Shown here: positions 1 through 6,349 of the stretch, one piece after another | Position numbering within the stretch: position 1 is the first letter of the stretch | How the letters are laid out: each line of letters begins with the position of its first letter | Assembly (NCBI GenBank): GCA_002256485.1 | Contig: NNSG01000002.1 | Location: 1 to 64,000, forward strand | Reading direction: 5' to 3' | Source: Fidelibacterota bacterium 408169 | GTDB taxonomy: Bacteria; Fidelibacterota; Marinisomatia; Marinisomatales; TCS55 | Length of the DNA stretch: 64,000 nucleotides | The notes under the pieces: model-generated | Seen by the model: only the letters and a program-made list of their open reading frames with translations | Databases searched by the model: none | What the model was told of the DNA's origin: nothing | Program-made: the position numbers and the translations under genes

Positions 1-68
1 AATTGGTTGAAAACGGACTGAATGGAGTAAATGGAATGGTTGAATATCCAAAAGAGTTTAATGAATAA
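1..68 (+). CDS. GNAT acetyltransferase, C-terminal fragment (cut by window edge)
   Basis: The last residues of a protein identical to the C-terminus of the GNAT protein at 1729-2253; the frame is open to the left edge and stops at 66-68. The DNA is identical to 2186-2253, so this is a second copy of the same cassette. It is incomplete because the window starts inside it. Confidence 0.85.
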   Translation, partial: LVENGLNGVNGMVEYPKEFNE

Positions 69-77
69 AAAATACGA

Positions 78-131
78 CACCACAACAATGTGTAAATTGC
101 ATTAAAACGCATTTTACTCGCAACGTTGTGC
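78..131 (+). other. attC-like recombination site of first GNAT cassette copy
   Basis: Inverse core CACCACAAC at 78-86 and core GTTGTGC at 125-131, about 40 bases apart. The interior arms (TGTAAATTGC and GCATTTTACTCG) are imperfectly complementary around a short ATTAAAAC loop. It equals 2263-2312 up to the GTT, where the sequences diverge, as expected of a strand-exchange point between G125 and T126. Confidence 0.75.
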
Positions 132-170
132 GTCATTTAATAGCAAAGCAAACCATAAGAACAAAAAAAT

Positions 171-728
171 ATGAAACGATTATTTTTAATATTACTGATT
201 TTTGTATCGATAAATTTATTTGCTCAACAAGAGAACGAAAGAGAAATAAAAGTTGGAATTGAAACAAATATTTTACCATTCTTTTATAATGGGTATCACG
301 GTTCATTATGGGTTGGAAAAAATGGATATAGAGCAAGGTTAGTTGCGGCAAAAGCAGATTATCCGAAAAACACTGTGCCAGATGGATTTAGAAAAATGAC
401 ATTATCGTTCTATGAAATAGAATTTGACATTTTCTTTGGAGATAAAAAAACTGAATTTTTAGGCTGGTGGTTAGCAACAGGGATTGGACAAACAAACCAT
501 CAAGTTACTACCCTGATAAATGACCTTACAGAAAATGTAAATACAATAGATATTCATATAGGAATTGGATATACATTTAACCTTTGGAAAGGATTGACAG
601 TTAACCCTTGGGGAGGTTTAGCTTGGCATACAAATTTCCCAAATGAAATTACTGTAGGTTCTGAAGTATGGGAACCTAAGAGTATTTCTCCTGTGGGTGG
701 TTTAAAAATAGGATATACTATTTTCTAA
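171..728 (+). CDS. Exported hypothetical protein, probable outer-membrane barrel
   Basis: 185 residues. The N-terminus (MKRLFLILLIFVSINLFAQ) is a clear signal peptide ending at an A-Q cleavage-like site typical of Bacteroidota. The mature part alternates aromatic and polar residues, with glycine-rich turns (GGLKIGYTIF at the very C-terminus) as in small outer-membrane beta-barrels; a terminal aromatic Phe fits that. I do not recognise the family. It is the first of three genes in one cassette and starts 45 bases after the cassette boundary, with no strong Shine-Dalgarno sequence in front of the ATG. Confidence 0.75.
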   Translation: MKRLFLILLIFVSINLFAQQENEREIKVGIETNILPFFYNGYHGSLWVGKNGYRARLVAAKADYPKNTVPDGFRKMTLSFYEIEFDIFFGDKKTEFLGWWLATGIGQTNHQVTTLINDLTENVNTIDIHIGIGYTFNLWKGLTVNPWGGLAWHTNFPNEITVGSEVWEPKSISPVGGLKIGYTIF

Positions 729-747
729 TTTTAAAAAGAATAATGAT

Positions 748-1146
748 ATGAACATACCAATTTTAATAGCAAATATTCTGACTTTTTTAGCATTCATAAT
801 TCATACATTTATGGGTGATAAAGAACTTAAAACTATTGAACCAGAAAATGAAAATGACGAAAAATATTTAAAACGAGAAAAATGGACAATGGCGAGAAGC
901 GGTTGGCATTGGATTTCGTTTGACTTATTATTTGCCACAATCGGACTTGGAATAATAAATTTCACTGACTATTTAGAAAGTGAAAGACTGTTACTTCAAA
1001 TATTAGCAATTTATTTTCTTGGATACGGAATTGTATGGCTGATTGGAATAGCGATTTCAAAAAAATTCCCTAAAAACTATTTAAAATTAGGACAGTGGAT
1101 TTTATTGTGGCTAATAAGTGGACTAATTTATTGGGGACTAAACTAA
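748..1146 (+). CDS. Hypothetical four-helix membrane protein
   Basis: 132 residues with about four hydrophobic segments, near residues 3-22, 52-70, 80-103 and 112-130, separated by a charged loop (KTIEPENENDEKYLKREKW). No signal sequence apart from the first membrane helix. It is the middle gene of the three-gene cassette; its TAA stop at 1144-1146 directly abuts the next ATG, suggesting co-translation. Function unknown. Confidence 0.75.
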   Translation: MNIPILIANILTFLAFIIHTFMGDKELKTIEPENENDEKYLKREKWTMARSGWHWISFDLLFATIGLGIINFTDYLESERLLLQILAIYFLGYGIVWLIGIAISKKFPKNYLKLGQWILLWLISGLIYWGLN

Positions 1147-1569
1147 ATGAATATGTTAAGACTTGGTGGATATATAAATATATTAATTGCAATCGGACAT
1201 GTAGTTGGATTGATTTGGGCTGAACAAATGTTTGAAGTAACTGGAATTGGAAAAGAAATGAACGAACTTGCTCAAACACATTCATCTTTACCGTATTTAT
1301 TGACGGTTTTTGTCGCAGTTGTGTTTTTCATTTTCGGACTTTATGGACTTTCCGCAGATGGAAAATTTAAAAAATTGCCATTTTTAAAATTGAGTATATT
1401 TGGAATTGCCGGAATTTATATTTTTCGTGGAATAGGAGAATTTATATTTGATATTTCACAACAAGAAGCACCACCAATGACTGAAACAATATATTCATTA
1501 ATTGCATTAGGAATTGGACTATTGTTTCTATTCGGAGGACTAAAAAAATGGAACTTAAAGAAAGAATAA
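1147..1569 (+). CDS. Hypothetical four-helix membrane protein
   Basis: 140 residues with about four membrane segments (near residues 6-25, 50-70, 80-100 and 115-133) and a basic C-terminus (KKWNLKKE). The topology is similar to the preceding gene, so the two may form a pair, although I see no clear sequence likeness. It starts at the base after the upstream stop codon and is followed four bases later by the cassette's attC. Function unknown. Confidence 0.75.
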   Translation: MNMLRLGGYINILIAIGHVVGLIWAEQMFEVTGIGKEMNELAQTHSSLPYLLTVFVAVVFFIFGLYGLSADGKFKKLPFLKLSIFGIAGIYIFRGIGEFIFDISQQEAPPMTETIYSLIALGIGLLFLFGGLKKWNLKKE

Positions 1570-1572
1570 CGA

Positions 1573-1705
1573 ACGCACAACAAAAGATAAAAATAATAGC
1601 CGAGTTTGTGCTAACTTGAAAACTTGTAGCTCGCATAAAGTTTATTTATAACTTGAAAAATTTGAGTTCCGAAATCGGCTACTATTCTTATCAAAACCGT
1701 TGTGG
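1573..1705 (+). other. attC site of the three-gene cassette
   Basis: Inverse core ACGCACAAC at 1573-1581 and core GTTGTGG at 1699-1705. Inner arms AATAATAGCCGA (1592-1603) and TCGGCTACTATT (1675-1686) are complementary with one mismatch, and pairing extends outward (AAGATAA with TTCTTATC). The same arms recur in the last attC at 5266-5398, so both belong to one family. Exchange point lies between G1699 and T1700. Confidence 0.8.
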
Positions 1706-1728
1706 TGCATATAAAAAGACGTTTGAAA

Positions 1729-2253
1729 ATGATATTAAGACAAGAAAATAAAAACGACCATAAAGACGTCTTTAGCGTAATTGAAAAAGCGTTTAAAGAC
1801 GCAGAATTCGCTGACAATACTGAACAGTTTTTAGTCGAACGATTAAGAAAATCAGTCGCTTTCATTCCCGAACTATCAATGGTTGCAGAAATTGACGGAA
1901 AAATTGTAGGACATATTCTATTGACGAAACTTATAATTAAAAACAAATCGACCGAATTTGACTCATTGGCTTTGGCACCTGTTTCTGTCCTACCCGAATT
2001 TCAAGGAATAGGAATAGGTGGAAAATTGATACTGGAATCACATAAAAAAGCGAAAGAATTAGGTTACAAGTCAATCGTTCTACTTGGACACGAAAATTAT
2101 TATCCACGATTCGGTTATGAACGAGCAGATAAATACGGAATTGAATTACCATTTGAAGTTCCTAAAGAGAATTGTATGGTAATTGAATTGGTTGAAAACG
2201 GACTGAATGGAGTAAATGGAATGGTTGAATATCCAAAAGAGTTTAATGAATAA
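1729..2253 (+). CDS. GNAT family N-acetyltransferase (YhbS-like)
   Basis: 174 residues from the ATG at 1729; an upstream GTG at 1702 overlaps the cassette junction and is less likely. Shows the GNAT acetyl-CoA motif QGIGIGGKL preceded by the beta4 strand (LALAPVSVLPEF), and the GHENYYPRFGYERA stretch typical of the YhbS branch. The acceptor substrate cannot be told from sequence. It is the only gene of its cassette. An identical 3' end lies at 1-68, so the cassette is present at least twice. Cassettes of this kind often carry acetyltransferases; whether this one confers resistance is unknown. Confidence 0.85.
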   Translation: MILRQENKNDHKDVFSVIEKAFKDAEFADNTEQFLVERLRKSVAFIPELSMVAEIDGKIVGHILLTKLIIKNKSTEFDSLALAPVSVLPEFQGIGIGGKLILESHKKAKELGYKSIVLLGHENYYPRFGYERADKYGIELPFEVPKENCMVIELVENGLNGVNGMVEYPKEFNE

Positions 2254-2312
2254 AAAATACGACACCACAACAATGTGTAAATTGCATTAAAACGCATTTT
2301 ACTCGCAACGTT
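2186..2312 (+). repeat. Exact direct repeat of 1-127 (duplicated cassette end)
   Basis: Bases 2186-2312 match 1-127 without a difference by eye: the last codons of the GNAT gene, its short trailer and the attC up to and including GTT. Identity stops at the base after GTT (GTGC at 128 versus ATAC at 2313). The other ends of the copies cannot be compared because the first lies outside the window. Confidence 0.9.
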
Positions 2313-2316
2313 ATAC
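2263..2316 (+). other. attC site of second GNAT cassette copy
   Basis: Inverse core CACCACAAC at 2263-2271 is the reverse complement of the cassette start GTTGTGGTG at 1699-1707. Core GTTATAC at 2310-2316 fits the GTTRRRY consensus except for one position. A short site of about 54 bases. Exchange point lies between G2310 and T2311. Confidence 0.75.
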
Positions 2317-2373
2317 GAAATTGTCCTCCACCCTATCGCAAGTTTGATAAACTTTAACTTTTTACATTATCAT

Positions 2374-2937
2374 ATGGAAAATACTAAACTTGAAAATAAG
2401 ATTCTAGAAATCATATCAAAATCACCAGTTAAAACTGATTTATCACATGCTAAATCTACTAGAAAATGGATTCTTAAATTAAAACCAGATGCAGATTATG
2501 CTCTTCAAATTTCTGCTTTAGCTCACGATATTGAAAGAGGTTTTGAATCAAACTATCATAATAAAACAAAAGAAAAATTTGATAATTATAAAGAGCATAA
2601 ACGTATACATTCTGAAAAAAGTGCGAAAATTATAGTTGAACTTCTTGAAAAACATAATTTTGATAAAGAGTTTATATCTAAAGTGAAGCATCTGGTTTTA
2701 AAACATGAATTTGGCGGCGATTTTGAATCTAATCTTTTAATGGATGCAGATAGTATTTCATTTTTTGAAGAAAATTTTGTGCAATACAATGAAAAATTTG
2801 GAGAAGAAAAAACGAGAAAAAAGATTAGATTTATGTATGACAGGATGTCTGATAAAGCTAAAAGTTTAGTCAAAGATATTCAATATGATGATCCTAAATT
2901 AAATCTCATTTTCAAGGAAGAAATTTCTGATAAATAA
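2374..2937 (+). CDS. HD-domain protein, possible DUF4202-like
   Basis: 187 residues from the ATG at 2374 (an in-frame ATG at 2344 would add ten residues). Histidine and HD pair spaced as in HD-superfamily metal-dependent phosphohydrolases: DLSHAKSTRKW, then SALAHDIERGFE, then VLKHEFGGDFE and an acidic LLMDADSISFFE. Mostly helical, no signal peptide, so cytoplasmic. The substrate is unknown. It is the only gene of the third cassette, which begins at 2311 with a 60-base leader. Confidence 0.75.
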   Translation: MENTKLENKILEIISKSPVKTDLSHAKSTRKWILKLKPDADYALQISALAHDIERGFESNYHNKTKEKFDNYKEHKRIHSEKSAKIIVELLEKHNFDKEFISKVKHLVLKHEFGGDFESNLLMDADSISFFEENFVQYNEKFGEEKTRKKIRFMYDRMSDKAKSLVKDIQYDDPKLNLIFKEEISDK

Positions 2938-3023
2938 CGGGTGGAGAACAACTCAAGGGGACGCTGCGCTTTCGTCGCTATCGCTCCTCACCCTCGTATA
3001 ACAAGGGATAATTAAAACCAATT
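2938..3023 (+). other. Incomplete attC-like trailer of the HD cassette
   Basis: CGTATAAC at 2995-3002 is the reverse complement of this cassette's start GTTATACG (2310-2317), so it qualifies as an inverse core. GGGTGGAGAACAA (2940-2952) also nearly mirrors TTGTCCTCCACCC after the cassette start. No matching inner arms or GTTRRRY core follow before the next gene at 3024, so the site seems truncated and the HD and deacetylase genes may now move as one unit. Confidence 0.5.
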
Positions 3024-3995
3024 ATGAAACTACTTATTTTTCTTGCATCATTTTGTTACACAACGGGTTACGGTCAATATTTGAATAATAGAGATGTTGA
3101 TGCGTCAAAACTTTATGAAGAGAGTAAACGTAATATTGCCATCACAATTGATGATGTTCCAAACACACGAAACTATCTTTTAAATGGTTTTCATTCAAAA
3201 TTACTATCTCAACTTGATTCATTGAATATTCCTATTACCATTTTTTTAAACGAAGGCCTTCTATACAAAACCGACTCAATAAGCAATAATTTAGATTTAT
3301 ATGAGAATTGGATTAAAAGAAATTATACCACTTTAGGCAATCATACATTTTCACATTTAAGATATTCGGAGGTTGTTTTTGAGCAGTTTGTAACGGACAT
3401 AGAGAACGGAGAAAAACTACTCAAAGAACTTGCAACTACATATCATAAACCTTTAATTCATTTTCGTTTTCCATACAATGACTTGGGAATAGATTCTATA
3501 CAACACACAAAAATTGACAGTACTCTTCGTATGAAGAATTACGTCAGTTCTCCCTTCACGGTCGAAAGTTCCGATTGGATGTTCAATTATATCTACGAGT
3601 ACTATTTATCGCAATCTAAATTCAAAAAAGCAAAGGAGATTGGACAACTTTACGTTTCGAAAACGATAGACTATATTCATTTCTTTGATTCACTATCCGC
3701 ACAAAAATATGGTAGAAGTATAAATCAAATATACCTATGCCATGACAACACCCTAAATGCGGACTATTTGAATGACATCATTTTGGAATTAAAAAAAAGG
3801 AGATTCACATTTATCAGCATAGATGATGCACTAACTGACACTGTTTATCAACAAGAAAATAATTACTATAAAAAATGGGGAGTTTCATGGCTATACAGAT
3901 GGATGCCAACACAATCAGAAAGGCTAAAATGGATGCATATTGAACCTGATATCAGTAGTATCGAACACCTATACCAAGACCTTTCAAAAAAATAA
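3024..3995 (+). CDS. Secreted polysaccharide deacetylase (NodB-type)
   Basis: 323 residues with a signal peptide (MKLLIFLASFCYTTGYGQ). NodB motifs are visible: IAITIDDVPN with the paired aspartates near residue 43, GNHTFSHLRYSE with the H-x3-H metal ligands, and RFPYND. The family removes acetyl groups from cell-wall or capsular polysaccharides; the substrate here is unknown. About 100 residues after the core carry CHDNTLNADYLNDII and SIDDAL, resembling the family's closing strands. The ATG follows an AAAACC-rich leader with no clear ribosome-binding site. Its cassette lacks an attC of its own and the next gene is truncated. Confidence 0.8.
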   Translation: MKLLIFLASFCYTTGYGQYLNNRDVDASKLYEESKRNIAITIDDVPNTRNYLLNGFHSKLLSQLDSLNIPITIFLNEGLLYKTDSISNNLDLYENWIKRNYTTLGNHTFSHLRYSEVVFEQFVTDIENGEKLLKELATTYHKPLIHFRFPYNDLGIDSIQHTKIDSTLRMKNYVSSPFTVESSDWMFNYIYEYYLSQSKFKKAKEIGQLYVSKTIDYIHFFDSLSAQKYGRSINQIYLCHDNTLNADYLNDIILELKKRRFTFISIDDALTDTVYQQENNYYKKWGVSWLYRWMPTQSERLKWMHIEPDISSIEHLYQDLSKK

Positions 3996-4003
3996 ATAGT
4001 ACC

Positions 4004-4330
4004 ATGAAAAATGTCTTAATTACTACAATTCTATCTTTTTCGATTAGTGTTAGTTTCGCTCAAAATGGAAAAATTCTTTCGAAGGAATTAGTGGATATAA
4101 AGAAATCAGAATACTGGTATAAGCTTTCAGAAAATGATACTTTAAAAACAAAATACAAATATTTGAACAAACTTGATTTCTATGCAATCACTTACCAAAG
4201 CGACAGTTCAATTGTAAAGGGAATGATTGTTGAGCCTAAAAAAGAAGGAATCTATCCCGTAGTAATTTTTAACAGAGGAGGAAATATAGATGCTGGAAAG
4301 TTGTGCATCATACAAAAGAACGAAATATGA
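4004..4330 (+). pseudogene. Alpha/beta-hydrolase (S9 peptidase-like), 3'-truncated at a cassette junction
   Basis: The first ~98 codons encode a signal peptide (MKNVLITTILSFSISVSFAQ) and the start of an alpha/beta-hydrolase fold: VKGMIVEPKKEGIYPVVIFNRGGN, the strand and oxyanion loop seen in secreted prolyl-oligopeptidase-like hydrolases of Bacteroidota. At base 4300 the native sequence stops: G4300|T4301 is the start of the next cassette, and the last ten codons (KLCIIQKNEI) are read from that cassette's leader. The nucleophile elbow and catalytic triad are absent, so it should be inactive. It follows the deacetylase by eight bases, probably co-transcribed. Confidence 0.75.
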
Positions 4331-5250
4331 AAGATAATACTCAAATAATAGTTTATGGTGGAACTGGTTTTTATGGACAAAAAGTGGTTGAGAAATTAGT
4401 TGCAAAAGGACAGTCTGTAAAAGTTGTTACAAGAAATTATGAAAACGCAAAAAAAATAGTTGGAGATGAAGTCGAAATATTTCAAGGAGACGTAACAGAA
4501 AAGGGAACGATTGAAAAATCCTTGAAAAATGTAAGTGCTATTGTAATTTGTCTTTCAGCAATGAGCAATAAACTAATCAGAAAAATGAAAGCAATTGAGC
4601 GTGATGCTGTTCTCGAAATAATGGAACAGGCAAAAAAAACAAACATTTCAAGATTAGTTTATATGTCGGGATATGAAATGAGAAAACAACTTCTTGATGA
4701 TTTAAAAATACCTGAATTCGGAGAAATAAAAATAGAAGTAGAAGAAAAAATTAGACAATCGGATTTTAACTGGACAATATTAGGTGATGCACCTGCCTTT
4801 GAAATGTTTTTTGCATTTACAAGCAAAGGAAGAATGACTGTCCCAGGTGGTGGATTGAATGCGTTCCCGACCATATCACCAGAAGATGTTGGAGAGATAA
4901 CAGCACAAATTGTAATGCGTGATGATTTGAATGGAAAAAGAATAAAACTAACAGGACCAAAAGCCTTTACTTTTCCCGAAGTAGCAAAATTAATGACTGA
5001 TATAGGTGGAAAAAAAATAAAGCATATAACCATCCCTTTATTTCTAATTAACATTGTTTCATTTTTACTTTTACCATTTACACCTTTCGTAAGGTATTTA
5101 TACAAAAGTTTAAAAATGCTAAATAATTTCCCAGTAGATTTAGCGGAAAATGTTCCAAAAGACCATAAATTATTGAGAGAATTATTTGATTATGAACCAG
5201 TAACTTTGGAAATGGAGATTAATAGTAGAGTTAAAGAAAATAATCTGTAA
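4327..5250 (+). CDS. NmrA-like atypical short-chain reductase / NAD(P)-binding protein
   Basis: 307 residues from the ATG at 4327; an upstream in-frame GTG at 4303 lies in the cassette junction and is less likely. The N-terminus has a Rossmann motif (IIVYGGTGFYGQKVVEKL), then VVTRNYENAKKI and EIFQGDVTEKGTIEKSL typical of NmrA/atypical extended SDRs, which bind NAD(P)H. There is a hydrophobic stretch near residues 230-255 (LFLINIVSFLLLPFTPF), suggesting membrane association. The substrate cannot be predicted. Sole gene of the last cassette, 4301-5392. Confidence 0.8.
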   Translation: MKDNTQIIVYGGTGFYGQKVVEKLVAKGQSVKVVTRNYENAKKIVGDEVEIFQGDVTEKGTIEKSLKNVSAIVICLSAMSNKLIRKMKAIERDAVLEIMEQAKKTNISRLVYMSGYEMRKQLLDDLKIPEFGEIKIEVEEKIRQSDFNWTILGDAPAFEMFFAFTSKGRMTVPGGGLNAFPTISPEDVGEITAQIVMRDDLNGKRIKLTGPKAFTFPEVAKLMTDIGGKKIKHITIPLFLINIVSFLLLPFTPFVRYLYKSLKMLNNFPVDLAENVPKDHKLLRELFDYEPVTLEMEINSRVKENNL

Positions 5251-5265
5251 AAGAAAGAAGTACGA

Positions 5266-5398
5266 ATGCACAACAAAGTATAAAAATAATAGCCGAAATA
5301 GTAGTAAATATGAACATTTTAGTACGCAACAACATTAGTAGTAAATTGAAAATTTCTGCTTCCGAAATCGGCTACTATTCTTATCCAAACCGTTAAAT
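5266..5398 (+). other. Terminal attC site of the cassette array
   Basis: Inverse core ATGCACAAC (5266-5274) is the reverse complement of the cassette start GTTGTGCAT at 4300-4308. Inner arms AATAATAGCCGA (5285-5296) and TCGGCTACTATT (5368-5379) are the same as in the attC at 1573-1705. The core GTTAAAT (5392-5398) fits GTTRRRY exactly, and its last six bases belong to the end of the glycosylasparaginase gene on the other strand. Confidence 0.8.
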
Positions 5399-6349
5399 CA
5401 TCCCCTTCACTTTATACAGTTTATTCACACCGTCTCTTGCGAGGGCATATTCAAAAGTCCACTTGATACAGGCGGAACCGATCTCTCCGTCTTTGCGAAT
5501 AGCGATATAGGCAATCTGAAAATCGGGGTTCCCCTTATGTTTTTTGATGACGCGGTTCAGTGCTTCTTCACAGGCGGCTGTGGGTTCGTATCCCTGGCGC
5601 ATCAGTTCCACCACCAAAAAACTTCCTGTTGTTTTTATCACTTCCTCTCCCAAGCCTGTGGCGGCGGCGCATCCGATCTCATTATCCACAAAAAGCCCGG
5701 CGCCAATGATGGGGCTATCCCCTACTCTACCATGTAATTTATAGGCCCAGCCGCTGGTGGTGCAGGCACCGGCAAGATCGCCTTTTTTATCCTGGACCAA
5801 AACTGAAATAGTATCGTGTGTTTCATGGGGCGTCATTTCTCTGCGTTTCTTTTTCCATTTTTCCCAGGCTGCTTTAGATTCATCCGTTAGGAGATTCATT
5901 TCTTCAAATCCTTGAGCAAGGGCAAACTGACGAGCCCCTTCCCCTACGAGCATGACGTGTTTCGTGTCTTCCATGACCTTCCGCGCCACGGATACCGGAT
6001 GTTTGATATTTTGCAAAAATGCCACCGAACCGGCATTGCCAGTTGAATCCATGACGCAGGCATCCAGCGTTACATTTCCCAGTTCGTCCGGCAGTCCACC
6101 GAAACCGACTGATGTACTTTTGGGATCTGCTTCCGGTACCCTGGCACCCGCTTCCGCAGCATCCATGGCCGATCTTCCCTTTTGCAGCACAGCCCACGCC
6201 GCATCATTCGCCGGCAACCCATGCTCCCATGTGGAAAGGATCAATGGGTCATTCATATTCGGCTCAATGGTTACACCGCTGAACAGTGCCGACGGCGCCG
6301 CCAACCCAACGGCGCTGGTTTTTAAAAAATCACGTCGTTTCATACCCAT
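5393..6349 (-). CDS. N4-(beta-N-acetylglucosaminyl)-L-asparaginase (glycosylasparaginase), Tat-exported
   Basis: 318 residues; an Ntn-hydrolase that cleaves the sugar-asparagine bond of N-linked glycopeptides and matures by self-cleavage. The cleavage site HDTISV is present, placing the nucleophile at Thr180, followed by GACTTSGWAYKLHGRVGDSP and GLFVDNEIG, closely like the Flavobacterium enzyme. N-terminus MGMKRRDFLKTSAVGLAAP is a twin-arginine signal, so it probably acts outside the cytoplasm. The ATG at 6343 overlaps the upstream gene's TGA and is an alternative start two codons in. Its stop codon overlaps the last attC, so the extreme C-terminus (VKGMI) may have been altered by the cassette insertion. 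Confidence 0.9.
   Translation of the reverse strand: MGMKRRDFLKTSAVGLAAPSALFSGVTIEPNMNDPLILSTWEHGLPANDAAWAVLQKGRSAMDAAEAGARVPEADPKSTSVGFGGLPDELGNVTLDACVMDSTGNAGSVAFLQNIKHPVSVARKVMEDTKHVMLVGEGARQFALAQGFEEMNLLTDESKAAWEKWKKKRREMTPHETHDTISVLVQDKKGDLAGACTTSGWAYKLHGRVGDSPIIGAGLFVDNEIGCAAATGLGEEVIKTTGSFLVVELMRQGYEPTAACEEALNRVIKKHKGNPDFQIAYIAIRKDGEIGSACIKWTFEYALARDGVNKLYKVKGMI

Follow-up and report, generated by a model that had tools for sequence, protein, structure and literature searches.

What is the AT-rich DNA that occupies the first 5,392 positions of the 64,000-nucleotide stretch analysed here (the window), which makes up the opening 64 kb of contig C12 of Fidelibacterota bacterium 408169? 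The genome (2.47 Mb, 48 contigs, completeness 95%, contamination 0.34%) has as its named relatives records of Candidatus Neomarinimicrobiota/Fidelibacterota (Marinimicrobia, SAR406), in agreement with a first-pass annotation that had called the chromosome Marinimicrobia-like. That annotation had described positions 1-5392 as an integron-type cassette array of Bacteroidota character and foreign to its chromosome. We find that the region is the distal portion of a cassette array that lies where a contig ends. At a probability of roughly 0.8, it forms the distal stretch of a chromosomal integron that lies between an asparaginase gene and a TDRPDF gene and has its cassettes moved by an integrase without I2, the additional domain, an extra helix, specific to the integron integrase IntI. 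The best reading of this element and its kin is a distinct, apparently undescribed integron class, in which the I2-less integrase would be the active recombinase.

The cassettes had been recognized from four starts that are the reverse complement of the inverse core behind the same cassette's last gene, a pairing held unlikely to arise by chance. All four pairs exist at 9 bases (GTTGTGCGT at 125 with 1581, GTTGTGGTG at 1699 with 2271, GTTATACGA at 2310 with 3002, and GTTGTGCAT at 4300 with 5274), but pairing alone is at chance level in this AT-rich sequence. Pairs of at least 8 bases number 11 against a shuffle mean of 8.6, and pairs of at least 9 bases number 6 against 2.7; those of at least 8 bases turn up as often in shuffled sequence and in the rest of the window, and were therefore rejected as proof of cassettes. 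What exceeds chance is the chain, in which the GTT closing one attC site is the start of the next pair (125>1581>1699>2271>2310>3002 and 4300>5274>5392), together with long hairpins and with the extended A/G pairing at position 11 described below. The long hairpins lie at 1581-1699 (stem score 43) and 5274-5392 (35.5), and the bottom-strand fold of 1575-1705 has a z of -3.2. These two attC sites, reported from the start to have common arms, are 77-78% identical, and both are more stable on the bottom than on the top strand (for cassette 2, folded with its own cassette start, -22.2 versus -20.6 kcal/mol). Loose settings of the chain finder (k of 7, stem of 18) produced false matches across the chromosome, and stricter ones were adopted. 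The features of the array and its flank are as follows, with a slash marking the boundary in G/TT.

1-124, plus strand: tail of cassette 1 (GNAT acetyltransferase copy 1) at the contig end; attC R'' ends at 86; 124/124 identical to 2186-2309.
125-1698, plus strand: cassette 2, three genes and attC; start GTTGTGCGTC-ATT and end GTTGTGCGTTCGTT pair along the outer stem.
1573-1705, plus strand: attC of cassette 2, from folding; R'' CGCACAAC, L'' ATAAAAATAATAGCCGA, L' TCGGCTACTATTCTTAT, R' GTTGTGG.
1699-2309, plus strand: cassette 3, GNAT acetyltransferase (1729-2253) copy 2 and short attC; Pfam Acetyltransf_9 4e-11; signature pair.
2310-3002, plus strand: cassette 4, DUF4202/HD protein (2374-2937); R'' ends at 3002; 9-base pairing; DUF4202 6e-25.
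3003-4299, plus strand: remnant with a polysaccharide deacetylase gene (3024-3995; Polysacc_deac_1 4e-12) and the 5' end of a second secreted-protein gene (4004-4299).
4300-5391, plus strand: last cassette, NmrA/NAD(P)-binding protein (4327-5250) and attC; signature pair GTTGTGCAT-C-ATAC / GTTGTGCATTCGTAC; NmrA 3e-20.
5266-5398, plus strand: attC of the last cassette, the TT of its R' being chromosomal; stem score 35.5; bottom strand -20.3, top strand -16.7 kcal/mol.
5392-5393, no strand: element/chromosome junction G/TT; G is 5392, and the TT from 5393 belongs to the asparaginase stop codon (TAA, minus strand).
5393-6349, minus strand: isoaspartyl peptidase/asparaginase gene, the chromosomal flank; Asparaginase_2 6e-66; orthologues ~84-87% identical in close relatives.

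By open reading frames and Pfam, the genes of cassette 2 encode an outer-membrane-like protein (171-728) and two membrane proteins (748-1146 and 1147-1569). The attC of cassette 3 is short, its R'' ending at 2271 and its core measuring 38 nt. The chain and the hairpins thus bear out the cassette array first proposed for 1-5392, but not as a wholly intact one. Fold and stem-score scans found no convincing arm for the attC of cassette 4 past 3002, the remainder of that site being lost, and no cassette start was found for the non-cassette remnant at 3003-4299. The second secreted-protein gene of the remnant has its frame broken at 4300, exactly at the G/TT of the last cassette. This scar (window 4004-4330) may reflect recombination between a GTT within the gene and a neighbouring attC, with deletion of the intervening DNA, or else an insertion at a secondary site.

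The element's opposite end is on contig C47. Its positions 1-126 are the reverse complement of the GNAT cassette start (126/126 identical to window 1699-1824), and the duplicated GNAT cassette, present at the C12 end and the C47 end, is the cause of the assembly break. Next on C47 is a tyrosine recombinase gene (199-1050) that points away from the array, with TDRPDF and cation-transporter genes directly behind it (1070-2489). In relatives the site is empty, and the asparaginase gene is directly followed by the TDRPDF and/or the cation-transporter gene. The ends on C47 and C12 bracket this site and are joined by their common GNAT cassette; the full order is TDRPDF < recombinase - attI - GNAT - three-gene cassette - GNAT - HD protein - remnant - NmrA, and then asparaginase. 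Because the asparaginase and TDRPDF neighbours adjoin in relatives, the element is a genuine insertion and not a chimera. Its foreignness to the chromosome, as originally claimed, takes this form, and the GNAT cassette was found full-length in this genome only among 130 genomes of the order. The search for intI and attI upstream of the array that had been recommended led to the recombinase and attI on C47, though the enzyme is not a normal IntI.

The C47 recombinase is intact and its catalytic residues are conserved. Its best sequence match in the PDB is the Vibrio cholerae integron integrase (2a3v, 1e-41). Against the integron integrase profile it scores 227.7 bits, below the cut-off of 265; TIGR02249 aligns to it at 2-180 and 239-315 only, with ~181-238 of the profile unmatched. 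Alignment to the full IntI of a congener places the absent residues within the IntI-specific region. The distance from GKG to HxxRH is 65 aa in this protein, as against 107 in IntI and 72-73 in Xer, and 65-70 aa in those array-associated homologues in which GKG was found; no large insert appears in an alignment of 25 homologues. I2, which in IntI lies near patch III, is absent from the recombinase. The Marinimicrobia recombinases form one clade (Shimodaira-Hasegawa-like approximate likelihood ratio test, SH-aLRT, 99) and IntI another (100). On sequence grounds we assign the enzyme to the tyrosine recombinases of the IntI/XerA neighbourhood, as one without the I2 insertion.

Within the order, the I2-less recombinase occurs whole or in part in ~8 of 61 genomes. 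An attI-like sequence (..AAACCCGCTAAACGCAATAATTGGGTTTAGCAAGAC/GTT) of ~45 conserved bp lies upstream of the recombinase gene in about 10 Marinimicrobia, in most of which its GTT is 73 nt from the recombinase start codon, with a different first cassette abutting each time; attI and a first cassette thus stand beside the integrase gene, as in an integron. Among the reference genomes scanned, relatives sharing ~40-55% identity came mainly from Bacteroidota (Algoriphagus, Belliella, Arundinibacter, Flammeovirga, Paludibacter and others). At eight Bacteroidota loci, chains of 3-6 cassettes begin ~100-450 bp behind the recombinase stop codon (several kb in L085), and the opposite flanks hold chains of 0-1 on the array strand, so that the arrays are one-sided. 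Tandem cassettes in the same orientation, each with a 3' attC, are found in the window, in L059 and at these eight loci, and none of 16 Bacteroidota genomes of this kind has an IntI over the cut-off. The Bacteroidota character first ascribed to the array is only half apt: recombinases and arrays of this class are widespread in Bacteroidota, but the recombinase here belongs to a Marinimicrobia-confined clade, and the platform is resident in the phylum.

Several further observations concern these recombinases. In Marinimicrobia, the stop codon of the recombinase gene directly adjoins or overlaps the beginning of ksgA or of the cation-transporter gene; these housekeeping genes mark two preferred chromosomal homes (L055, L057, L059, L060, L064, L066, L068, L074). 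Bacteroidota I2-less integrases (L077, L087, L103, L131, L133) carry an N-terminal extension of ~100-300 aa, whose similarity to HARP in two of these integrases is below the cut-off (E 0.02-0.08) and is a lead only. L085, a Bacteroidetes metagenome-assembled genome, has a second tyrosine-recombinase-like gene (L085:11002-11838) between the I2-less integrase and the array; some arrays, such as this one, may use a recombinase pair.

The attC sites themselves carry a signature. In 38 cassettes from ten I2-less arrays, the two ends of the cassette pair along ~15 bp. Start and end match at positions 1-8 in 38/38, partly by selection, as the finder required 8; position 11 was not used by the finder. 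At position 11 the start has A in 38/38, and the end, read as its reverse complement, carries G, in 27 directly and in most others behind a bulge of one base (C-A against TC-G). With position 11 left unconstrained, 50 of 59 matching pairs (L076-L143) are A/G and 4 are G/A, the latter being arrays or pairs on the other strand. A/G pairs were found in 0 of 6 pairs at IntI loci. The extended pairing with A/G at position 11 has 0 occurrences on either strand of the other 58.5 kb of the window, and the signature is likewise absent from nine IntI loci and from contig C1, which carries a canonical integron remnant described below. L118, a Bacteroidia record, groups with the Marinimicrobia clade, and its signature pairs lie, as in Marinimicrobia, on the strand opposite to that of other Bacteroidota. 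Inside the outer arm, the sites have AAC/GTT, a spacer that is unpaired and unequal, an inner stem that is long and in many contains an unpaired base, and a tip that is long and variable; the core is close to 117-118 nt in most. The bottom strand folds better in 36/38 of the I2-less sites, which thus show the AAC/GTT R''/R' cores, the hairpin and the bottom-strand bias of attC.

These features are largely those of IntI chromosomal integrons such as that of V. cholerae (IntIA, PDB 2a3v), which likewise have an integrase gene, attI, head-to-tail cassettes, AAC/GTT attC cores and a long imperfect hairpin whose bottom strand is the better folder. The present class differs in three respects: the integrase has no I2 insertion between the GKG strand and box II, the Bacteroidota integrases point toward the array, and the outer arm of attC is paired along ~15 bp, position 11 being a T.G wobble. 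A canonical R box is ~7 bp. The element is integron-like by anatomy but fails the defining test of the literature, the IntI-specific domain, and searches that demand this domain would miss the C47 integrase.

Could a canonical IntI have built the array in trans? On this explanation the array would be an ordinary cluster of attC sites lacking an integrase (CALIN), or a cassette dump, and the neighbouring recombinase would be unrelated. The window alone does resemble a CALIN, CALINs are common (PMC9024848), and a full IntI over the cut-off occurs in 12 of 61 relatives. The genome itself once had a canonical integron. At C1:5934-6221 (L014) lies an intI with a TIGR02249 match, adjoined by three chained cassettes (NfeD/stomatin, helicase and Mrr-like nuclease) that reach the contig end. 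This remnant (C1:1-6221) resembles the present element in its three chained cassettes and in having its attI side beside intI. It differs in that its integrase is of the I2-bearing IntI family and has lost its middle, an in-frame internal deletion having cut it to 95 aa and joined the N-terminus to the C-terminal KSPLDS, and in that its attC sites are of another sequence type without the position-11 signature. We dismissed the idea that C1 and C12 are two ends of one array, as the attC types differ and the partner of C12 is C47. At other IntI loci, looser chain settings gave several implausible chains, and only C1, L023 and part of L015 were counted as IntI-type arrays. Since an integrase and attI do stand at the far end of our array, joined to it through the GNAT cassette, since the A/G signature is missing from the C1 cassettes and from IntI loci, and since the recombinase adjoins attI and arrays in two phyla, with the tested Bacteroidota genomes lacking any IntI over the cut-off, we regard this origin as unlikely.

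Still less probable is that the recombinase is a housekeeping Xer, acting in chromosome dimer resolution and near arrays by accident. It passes the NCBIfam XerA model (228 against a cut-off of 220), and in a Foldseek search with a moderate-quality model XerA ranked first and the integron integrase second. Unlike an Xer/dif recombinase, however, the gene is accessory and patchily present (the ~8 of 61 relatives above), the genome has separate XerC- and XerD-like genes (L001, L003) that fall outside its family in the tree, and attI and cassettes abut it at a fixed distance. That the window is a chimeric or contaminated contig, an objection raised by the first-pass annotation, is scarcely credible: the sharp step in guanine-cytosine (GC) content at 5393 (31% leftward, about 38-42% rightward; 29-34% by cassette against 37.7% in the remaining window) and the position of the array at a contig end speak for it, whereas contamination is 0.34%, both flanks of the ancestral gene pair were recovered, each joined to element DNA that ends with the same cassette, the junction is an exact G/TT and the recombinase clade is Marinimicrobia-specific.

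Some points weigh against an I2-less chromosomal integron. I2 is held to be essential, which in principle leaves room for a different enzyme at these sites. Only one Marinimicrobia element has both ends known, and in it the middle of one GNAT copy, between C12:1 and C47:1, is unassembled and could hide further cassettes. Many recombinase loci are too short to reveal an array, and the AlphaFold model of the recombinase has a predicted template modelling score (pTM) of only 0.66. The trees do not separate an I2 that was never gained from one that was lost (approximately unbiased test, p 0.49), and they neither favour nor disfavour an I2-less ancestor of IntI.

As to mechanism, we infer that the recombinase moves the cassettes and acts on single-stranded DNA. 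Cassette circles would insert at attI and cassettes would be excised at attC, with cleavage at G/TT on the folded bottom strand of attC, as with IntI. Without I2, the enzyme would be unable to dock extrahelical bases in the IntI manner; the R arm, extended to ~15 bp and with a wobble or bulge 10-11 bp from the cut, may instead supply grip and polarity. The position-11 pair would favour bottom-strand folding, because it forms T.G in the bottom-strand fold but A.C in the top-strand one, and would so mark polarity.

The literature treats I2 as the defining innovation that enabled integrons (PMC9668308, PMC7790495). Its deletion kills IntI1, and with no ancestor-like enzyme at hand its causal role was beyond test (PMC7790495). 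The closest known category of kin is the "integron-like" subgroup of simple tyrosine recombinases (PMC8138268); the relevant passages of that source call the insertion essential for integron function and mention no arrays in members that lack it. Marinimicrobia are missing from a 2021 list of integron-bearing phyla (PMC8618304), and within Bacteroidetes proper IntegronFinder 2.0 reported just one complete integron, in Salinibacter (PMC9024848). We found no description of I2-less integrons or of Marinimicrobia integrons in open PMC text, preprints and subscription papers being outside that search.

A side finding concerns resistance genes of the tet(X) group. On Acinetobacter plasmids, tet(X3) is preceded by a truncated "xerD", which represents the C-terminal half of an I2-less integrase from Bacteroidota and shares ~66% identity with the Algoriphagus enzyme; tet(X) lies directly behind the truncated integrase in L148:2967-5090 (NZ_CP104735.1), L151 and L153 (tet(X3)) and L152 (tet(X5)). 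tet(X3) starts at GTT-N7-A, and the attC half behind it aligns from R'' onward with Algoriphagus-type attC sites (E ~1e-7, in a small set); start and end pair imperfectly (10/14). This "xerD", truncated and carried with ISVsa3 on plasmids, is not a working integron. The arrangement xerD-tet(X3)-res-orf1-ISVsa3 is known (PMC7494873), in a text that makes no mention of an integron. That tet(X3) is a stray cassette of the I2-less class is a strong lead, not proof, and would explain the adjacent "xerD" fragment.

We consider it reasonably probable that cassette capture has a second natural solution, in which the I2-less integrons of Marinimicrobia and Bacteroidota read attC polarity by means of an R arm that is extended and carries a T.G wobble on the bottom strand, the Bacteroidota enzymes perhaps aided by their N-terminal extension, and I2 is not required. 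Present software would either miss arrays of this kind or count them as CALINs, and such arrays are perhaps the source of mobile tet(X) genes. Our results suggest that Bacteroidota integrons have been overlooked as searches target IntI proper. GTT-N7-A paired with G at position 11 is a sequence-level diagnostic that makes the class easy to find, and natural I2-less integrases beside attI/attC arrays give a direct means to test the role of I2.

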